A stretch of 35,648 nt of DNA from positions 12,279 to 47,926 of the forward strand of contig JAJQFB010000026.1 in the NCBI GenBank assembly GCA_021201395.1, given 5' to 3'. Positions 10,115-30,564 of the stretch are shown one piece after another (position 1 is the first letter of the stretch; the number at the start of each line of letters is the position of its first letter). The notes beneath the pieces were generated by a model that was given only the letters and a program-made list of their open reading frames with translations, made no database searches and was not told where the DNA came from. A program made the translations under genes and the position numbers. The DNA comes from Clostridiales bacterium. Its GTDB lineage: Bacteria; Bacillota; Clostridia; Lachnospirales; CAG-274.

Positions 10115-10396
10115 ATGAAATATTTGATAATTCAGGCACTGGACGGTATGTCTATGCTGTTTTATCTTCTGATATTGGCGAGATGCTTAATAAGCTGGCT
10201 GCCTGTTGACAGAAGCAATAAAATTATCGATTTGTTATATACACTGACAGAACCGGTTTTGGCTCCTATAAGAGGGCTTTTTGACAGGTCGCCTCTCGGA
10301 GGCTACGGCATGAGAATAGATTTTTCTCCCGTTATAGCAATAATTCTTGTCAATATTGTATGCAACATATTAAAAACGATAGTGGTTTATGTTTAA
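10115..10396 (+). CDS. ylmG: YggT/YlmG-family membrane protein
   Basis: The 93-residue protein has two hydrophobic helices (about residues 12-30 and 70-90) separated by the conserved TEPVLAPIRGLF segment, the signature of the YggT family. Members are linked to cell division and membrane morphology; the biochemical role is unclear. ATG 10115 lies behind AAGGGTGA. The 3' end overlaps the ylmH start by 8 bases. Confidence 0.92.
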   Translation: MKYLIIQALDGMSMLFYLLILARCLISWLPVDRSNKIIDLLYTLTEPVLAPIRGLFDRSPLGGYGMRIDFSPVIAIILVNIVCNILKTIVVYV

Positions 10397-11173
10397 TAAG
10401 AGTGATTTTTTAAGGAATATTTCCGATACGGAGCTTAAAATGTTTATGGCTAAGGGCTTTGACAGGGCGGCCGCTGCCGAGAAAAGACTAAAAACCGCCT
10501 TTTCCGATTTTGCCGACCCCTATAAGGTGACGGCTCTTGCAAATGCCGTAAAAAAGGGCTTTAATCTAAATGTTAAAACCTACGGCGGCTATGAAGGGGC
10601 GGAGAGGCTTATGGCAGGGTTTTATCCCGAATATGCCGAAGATGAGCCTTTCCCATTGTTCCCGTTTTGATAAGCTGTAACCCGGCATTTTCAAAAAAGC
10701 TTGCCCACAGGGACTTTTTAGGCTCTGTTTTAGGTCTAGGAATCGAAAGAAGCAAAATAGGAGATATTGTTTTAAACGAGGGTTCCGCCCTTGTGTTTTG
10801 TGATGAACAGGTGGCGGAATATGTTGCTTCAAGCCTTGAGCAGGTGGGGCATACCAAAGTAAAGGCGGAAATAACAGAGGATGCTTCGGCTTACATTGCC
10901 ACTGATGAGGTAAAGGAAACAGTCAAAACTGTTGCTTCCGAAAGAGCGGACGCTGTTTTAAGCTCGGCTTTTAACATATCCAGAGGGGCTGCTTCCGAGG
11001 CGATTAAGTCGGGAAAGGTTTTCGCAAACTGGGTTCCCGCAGAAAGCGGTTCAAAGAAGCTTTCAGAGGGGGACGTCATAACCCTGAGAGGAAAGGGCAG
11101 AGTTAAGCTTCTTGAATTTATGGGCAGTACAAAAAAGGATAAATTAATTATAAAATTTCAAAAATTTAATTAG
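10389..11173 (+). pseudogene. ylmH: ylmH, S4-domain RNA-binding protein, interrupted by a -1 frame change
   Basis: Two overlapping frames together give one YlmH of about 260 residues, the normal family length. Frame one (10389-10670) holds the N-terminal region up to EDEPFP. The -1 frame then continues IVPVLISCNPAFSKKLAHRDFLG, keeping the family's LAHRDFLGSVLGLGIERSKIGD motif, and ends with the S4 RNA-binding domain (RGAASEAIKSGKVFANW... GDVITLRGKGRVKLLEF). The frames join at T TTC CCA (10649-10655), which matches a -1 slippery heptamer. Alternatively a base is missing from the T or C run. A TTG at 10667 overlaps the first stop and could allow re-initiation, but without the N-terminal domain. 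YlmH-type proteins take part in ribosome-associated quality control in Bacillus; rqcH is in this window too. Confidence 0.88.
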
Positions 11174-28800: not shown

Positions 28801-30564
28801 TTATTCTTTCTTAAGTCTCTCCGTAAGCTCCTCCGTGGGGGTAACATAGGCGGTTTTGTTTGTTGTGTAAATTACAAAACCGGGCTTTGCTCCGTTGGGC
28901 TTTTTTATAAACCTTTTGGGAGTATAGTCCACGGGAACAAGGCTTCCCTGTCTGGCCTTGCTGTAATAGGCGGCAAGACAGGCGGCCTCGGTTATTGTTC
29001 TGTGGGGAACCTCTTTCCCCTCCGTAAAAACAACGACGTGAGAGCCGGGAATCTGTTTGGTGTGGAACCAAATATCCGAATTTTTGGCTGTTTTCATAGT
29101 AAGCTCATCGTTTTGCGTGTTGTTTTTCCCGACGGCGATTAAAAATCCGTCGGAGGAAACAAACTGCATAGGCTGTGACTTTTTACCGTTTTTTTTGTTT
29201 TTCTCAAAGCCCTTGTGTTTCTTTATAAAGCCCTGGTCGAAAAGCTCCCGTCTTATTTCCTTTATATCCTGTTCGTTTGAACATTCCTCAAGGGCGTTTA
29301 AAACACTTTCGAGATAATAAAGCCCATCCTCGTTTTCCTTAATCTGTGTTTGAAGAGCCGCAAAGGTTCTCTTTTCCTTGTTGTATTTCTTAAAATATTT
29401 TTGGGCGTTTTCCTGAGGGGAAAGGTCAGGGTCAAGGGGTATTTTTATTTCACTTTGGTTTTCATCGTAAAAATTTATAACCTTAGCCTCCTTATCGCCG
29501 CTTCTTATGCTGTAGGCGTAGGAAATAAGAAGCTCCCCCCAAAGCCTGTGGGTTTCTCTGTTTTCTATACTCTTAAGGGTTCTTGTCTGTATGTCTTTCT
29601 TTTTTACACAGCGTTCTATATTGTTGTTTATAAGCTTTCTTAAATCGTGGGTTTTCTGACCCATTCTGAAAAGCATATCCCTCTTTGAATAAAAGGCCTC
29701 AAGCAGGGCGGAACAGCTCTCATATTCACTGTGTTTCATCGAAGAAAGAGCGGTCAGCTCTATAGGCGCAAATTCTTTGGGTCTGCCGTCCTTTTCAAAA
29801 TATATAACAGGAGTAAATTTTCCGCCTTTTATATTTTCAAAAACAGCCTTAAAAGCCTTAAACAGGGCTTTTTTGTCCTCCTCCGTAAGCTCTTCCGTAT
29901 TGAGAGAAGAGTTAAGCCCTGCCCTGTAACATATTTCCTCCGCCATAACGGGGCTTATGCCTGTGTATGACTTATATATAAACTGCTGTATTTTAACCGG
30001 GGGGCTTGCCTTTACAGCCGCATAGAAGCCCTCCTCCGTAAGCTCCAAAGGATTAAGCTTCCCCTGCGAGGGGGGATTTTCATATGCTTTCCCGGGCAGA
30101 ACCTCTCTTACAGAACTTAACTCAAAATTTATATGCCTTGCGGCTTCGAGAATAACTCCCTCGTCATTTACAAGTATAAGGTTTGAATACCTGCCCATAA
30201 TTTCAAGTATAAGCCTGTTTACAACAAAATCCCCCATTTCGTTTACGGCCTCTATCTCAAAAATAACCTGCCTTTCAAGACCGGGCTGATAAATTTTTGT
30301 TATCTTCCCTCCGCCGATTCTCTTTCTCAAAACCATACAGAAAAGAGGGGGCGTCTGAGGATTTTCAAATTTTCTCTCCGTAAGGCCGAAACGGGGCGCC
30401 GACGGGTTTGCGCTCAAAAAAAGCCTGTAGGCATTCCCGAAAGCCCTTATCTGTAAAACAATGTTGTCCCTTTCGGGCTGAAATATCTTGTCTATTTTAC
30501 CGTTTATAATTTTATCCTTAAGCTCTCTTACAACAGCACTGACCGTAATTCCGTCAAAAGCCAT
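28801..30564 (-). CDS. rqcH: NFACT-family ribosome quality control protein RqcH
   Basis: RqcH binds stalled 50S subunits with peptidyl-tRNA and recruits tRNA-Ala to add an alanine tail that marks the chain for degradation. The 587 residues match the family: NFACT-N (MAFDGITVSAVVRELKD...NGKIDKIFQP, LFLSANPSAPR, FCMVLRKRIGGGKI, LILEIMGRYSNLIL), helix-hairpin-helix and coiled-coil middle part (about 200-430), and NFACT-R (VGKNNTQNDELTMKTAKNSDIWFHTKQIPGSHVVV, near 475-510). At the functional Asp97-Arg98 pair of Bacillus RqcH this protein has Glu97-Arg98 (GLERQV), a conservative change. The same family has been annotated as fibronectin-binding protein. It is monocistronic with its own promoter. 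Confidence 0.95.
   Translation of the reverse strand: MAFDGITVSAVVRELKDKIINGKIDKIFQPERDNIVLQIRAFGNAYRLFLSANPSAPRFGLTERKFENPQTPPLFCMVLRKRIGGGKITKIYQPGLERQVIFEIEAVNEMGDFVVNRLILEIMGRYSNLILVNDEGVILEAARHINFELSSVREVLPGKAYENPPSQGKLNPLELTEEGFYAAVKASPPVKIQQFIYKSYTGISPVMAEEICYRAGLNSSLNTEELTEEDKKALFKAFKAVFENIKGGKFTPVIYFEKDGRPKEFAPIELTALSSMKHSEYESCSALLEAFYSKRDMLFRMGQKTHDLRKLINNNIERCVKKKDIQTRTLKSIENRETHRLWGELLISYAYSIRSGDKEAKVINFYDENQSEIKIPLDPDLSPQENAQKYFKKYNKEKRTFAALQTQIKENEDGLYYLESVLNALEECSNEQDIKEIRRELFDQGFIKKHKGFEKNKKNGKKSQPMQFVSSDGFLIAVGKNNTQNDELTMKTAKNSDIWFHTKQIPGSHVVVFTEGKEVPHRTITEAACLAAYYSKARQGSLVPVDYTPKRFIKKPNGAKPGFVIYTTNKTAYVTPTEELTERLKKE

Follow-up and report, generated by a model that had tools for sequence, protein, structure and literature searches.

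The stretch of DNA analyzed here, called the window in the following, comprises 35,648 nucleotides of a Clostridiales bacterium and carries a ylmH gene that is split into two reading frames on the forward strand. YlmH is an S4-domain factor of bacterial ribosome-associated quality control that binds to the 50S subunit (PDB 8s1p, 8s1u, 2fph). The 5' part is an open reading frame from 10389 to 10670, which aligns collinearly with residues 1-92 of the orthologue from the congener G003, where the gene is intact (72% identity). It ends with ...YAEDEPFPLFPF, followed by the stop codon TGA at 10668-10670, which is out of frame for the rest of the gene. The 3' part lies in the -1 frame, reads FPIVPVLISCNPAFSKKLAHRDFLG... 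from 10649 onwards, and runs to 11173. It is 78% identical to residues 88-261 of the G003 protein, and it matches the Pfam families YlmH_RBD (RNA-binding domain of YlmH, PF17774, E 2e-14) and S4 (PF01479, E 3.6e-6). The N-terminal region and the rest of the protein are not continuous in one frame in the window, and the -1 offset is found at 10649-10655. The sequence at this site is TTTCCCA, with the 0-frame codons TTC CCA, and it has the phase X XXY YYZ of a slippery heptamer upstream of a 0-frame stop. An earlier note on this DNA had described a split of ylmH exactly at T TTC CCA, which a slip of one base backwards would repair, and both the frames and the restored C-terminal part were confirmed. 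The TTG that it had seen overlapping the first stop is also present (10667-10669); it opens a frame of 168 amino acids on the forward strand (10667-11173), a possible re-initiation product without the N-terminal domain.

The G003 orthologue matches YlmH of B. subtilis (PDB 8s1p) with an E value of 3.2e-32 over 225 residues. The gene in the window resembles YlmH in its domain order, i.e., N-terminal region, YlmH_RBD, and S4, and differs from it in being distributed over two frames through one missing base. The neighborhood, read from the translations of the open reading frames, fits as well, with sepF-like and ylmG-like genes directly upstream and a divIVA-like gene downstream. Surroundings of the sepF, ylmG, and divIVA type are the usual ylm neighborhood. 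A second ylmH copy was not found in the genome, no phage relatives were detected, and neither a promoter nor a terminator was found locally at the junction.

The alignment with ylmH genes of relatives, which the earlier note had proposed as a check, was performed with genomes of the same genus, family, and order. Matches were obtained in 55 of the 61 genomes searched. In all eight other members of the genus a single frame runs through the junction, and the sequence is one base longer than in the window; likewise, one frame passes through the junction in the 46 other genomes of the family and order with a match. The split is thus absent from the eight congeners and from all other matching relatives. 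In a genus-wide DNA search ylmH had a length of 786 bases in G003 and G004, the two closest congeners, versus 785 bases in the window. The codons at the junction are CCT TTT CCC in G004, GAC TTT CCT in G008, and CCT TTC CCA in the window, i.e., the congeners have one base more between conserved flanking codons. Closer relatives were sought among genome contigs, which yielded only loci at 77% and 58% and no assembly of the same species. The earlier note had regarded a lost base as the simpler reading, and it had named an extra T or C in reads or related strains as the observation speaking against recoding. Such an extra base was indeed found, in congeners and not in the same strain, and the simpler reading is therefore supported.

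Among the 55 matching genomes an internal stop outside the window was seen only in G004, at a different place of the gene. This is an in-frame TGA about 168 codons into ylmH (L004:1551-1553, G004:C233), at a position where G003 has Ser. A reassignment of TGA could be ruled out, because the ylmH genes of the congeners themselves terminate with TGA.

In comparison with G003 and G004, dN/dS was about 0.21-0.22 upstream of the junction and about 0.11-0.13 downstream of it. Both parts of ylmH are under purifying selection, and therefore the loss of the base is either very recent or not real. This is as expected for a protein that was intact until very recently, and on its own it does not separate a sequence error, a recent mutation, and recoding from one another.

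The deciding result was a survey of frameshifts in the whole assembly. About 983 kb of this genome were compared with open reading frames of congeners, for the most part from about 1.1 Mb of G008, and about 284 kb could be judged; in the reverse survey, with the open reading frames of this genome as queries on G008, about 261 kb could be judged. Eleven distinct frameshifted orthologues were found in this genome and none in G008, although the comparisons were between different species, so that some of the indels could be real. This corresponds to about one frameshift in every 26 kb of the conserved genes sampled, an excess of one-base indels relative to a comparable genome. Frame-aware alignment revealed single-base changes at nine of the eleven loci; a base was lost at eight of these and gained at one, and seven of the nine changes are at A/T runs of 4 to 7 bases. 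The nine genes, putatively named from their sequences, are ylmH, a SAM-dependent methyltransferase, rsgA, gdpP, proB, a penicillin-binding protein with PASTA domains, mutL, a tyrosine integrase, and a CapA-like gene. Of the remaining two loci, a glycosidase-like gene has a larger gap, about 61 nt long, and the other is a recombinase; the frameshifted set thus includes mobile elements (integrase and recombinase). The methyltransferase gene lies outside the window on the same 57-kb contig as ylmH and lacks one T in a run of Ts (G000:C119, about 1352-1358, L063). The mutL gene is frameshifted by one base near 10092 of L133 (G000:C128). A manual inspection of in-frame stops in the surveyed genes yielded only one candidate for an internal nonsense codon, which points to a signature of indels and not to general gene decay. 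An apparent internal stop was seen in a sigma-factor-like gene (L157:4556-5263, G000:C94), at a position where the congener has Lys. A hexamer/Viterbi scan for frameshifts was insensitive, missed ylmH itself, and was not used.

The earlier note had raised the possibility that the split is real recoding. Programmed or corrective -1 frameshifting at T TTC CCA would yield full-length YlmH and would place a quality-control factor under frameshift control. The gene shares with known cases of -1 programmed ribosomal frameshifting (reviewed in PMC5009743) a correctly placed, in-phase X XXY YYZ before the stop, and the protein restored by the -1 frame is under purifying selection; the gene differs from them in the lack of a stimulatory structure, of an upstream Shine-Dalgarno-like element, and of conservation. 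The region 10656-10760 (105 nt) had a z of 0.61 and the shorter region 10660-10710 (51 nt) a z of -0.79 versus shuffled sequences, so that no stable downstream RNA structure was seen when folding was performed without pseudoknots, and inspection of 10620-10648 revealed neither AGGAG nor GGAGG. The heptamer is not remarkable in itself. TTTCCCA occurs four times in the window versus 9.5 times expected. In the sampled genome T TTC CCA itself is rarely seen in phase (3 in 222,966 codon pairs), while any in-phase X XXY YYZ is found about 3.3 times per gene of 260 codons. Its presence at the break has a simple reason, because T TTC CCA is what inevitably remains when one T is deleted from CCT TTT CCC ATT, and this single deletion suffices. 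Two other slip sites also have in-phase heptamers, T TTT TTA in the methyltransferase gene and A AAA AAT in the integrase gene, showing how easily a heptamer appears by chance when a run loses a base; at six of the nine resolved sites there is no such heptamer. In addition, the A-site tRNA would have to change its pairing from CCA to CCC, which requires an unfavorable wobble. With a split that is missing from every congener and many similar one-base slips in the assembly, the recoding claim is not supported, and we regard programmed or corrective frameshifting as very improbable. Even less credence is given to the variant that the deletion is real and fixed in the species, with full-length YlmH made by a corrective -1 slip at T TTC CCA; if it were true, a factor of stalled-ribosome quality control would itself be the product of recoding. 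The earlier note's suggestion of re-initiation, with a stop at the TGA 10668-10670 and a new start at the overlapping TTG at 10667, would result in two separate chains and fared no better. The TTG does open the frame of 168 amino acids, but inspection revealed no ribosome-binding or Shine-Dalgarno-like sequence upstream of it, no relative has such an arrangement, and the product would be without the N-terminal domain, the deletion of which renders B. subtilis YlmH inactive and unable to bind to the 50S subunit (PMC11317155). This reading is likewise extremely improbable.

It is thus almost certain that the split of ylmH stems from an error in the sequence or from a recent mutation, and that it does not represent a novel form of gene regulation. 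If the deletion of one base is real and recent and inactivates ylmH in this strain, it could be tolerated, because the loss of ylmH has little effect in B. subtilis, where YlmH is redundant with RqcP (PMC11317155), and RqcH, an RqcP-like protein, and tmRNA are all encoded in the genome. The gene of the RqcH/NEMF family, which encodes the partner factor of YlmH in ribosome-associated quality control, is intact (28801-30564, reverse strand, 587 amino acids). It matches the NCBIfam models RqcH_arch (E 8.7e-63) and EfbA (E 2.8e-147), although neither match reaches the curated cut-off. The RqcP-like S4 protein of 89 amino acids (L122:837-1106) was assigned by resemblance and by its position beside an HU-like gene, and it had no match to the curated RqcP model; the tmRNA is found on G000:C77. 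In a protein search RqcH had no match in the congeners G004 and G008, which is possibly due to assembly gaps or lineage loss, while the proteins of other congeners are about 70-80% identical. A real deletion would also be in line with the in-frame TGA in the ylmH of G004 and with the frameshift in mutL. If the latter is real, a defect in mismatch repair could contribute to slips in run length, and it is conceivable that such a defect is behind the slips. However, the observed rate in conserved genes such as rsgA, proB, gdpP, mutL, and the gene of the penicillin-binding protein is high for a living genome, no frameshifts were seen in G008, those found here come with few nonsense codons, and relaxed selection is not seen in the downstream part of ylmH. 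Several slip sites are, moreover, in short runs, on which the loss of mismatch repair acts least. A real mutation is therefore possible but rather unlikely.

The best explanation is that ylmH is an ordinary gene from which one T was lost at CCTTT(T)CCC, most probably through a sequencing or assembly indel and not through a change in the organism. One T would have dropped out of CCT TTT CCC in the assembly, which would break the frame and let the TGA at 10668-10670 be read as a stop, and the slippery heptamer T TTC CCA would have arisen as a by-product. An assembly error is favored because slips occur at the given rate in many conserved genes that are unrelated to one another, and none was seen in G008, and we infer that the slips across the assembly are technical rather than biological. 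Residual errors of long-read assemblies are mainly indels and 1-bp errors in homopolymer length (PMC8442456). The slips resemble such errors in being one-base losses mostly in A/T runs, many per Mb, and in unrelated conserved genes; they differ from them at a few sites, where the runs are very short. The run in ylmH is itself short (T4 to T3), and short-read assemblies seldom err at runs as short as T4. Further points against an indel of the assembly are that no other broken gene was noticed in the rest of the 35-kb window, that real decay is plausible for the mobile elements in the frameshifted set, and that some slips could be biological in a survey that spans species.

Taken together, ylmH illustrates that, when one base is lost beside a short run, a slippery heptamer can arise in phase exactly at the break. 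Because the loss itself can create it, the presence of a heptamer where a gene is split says little in favor of recoding. Judging from the survey, frameshifts that are false or recent appear to be numerous in this assembly, at about one for every 26 kb of the conserved genes sampled, and other split genes in it should therefore be viewed with distrust.
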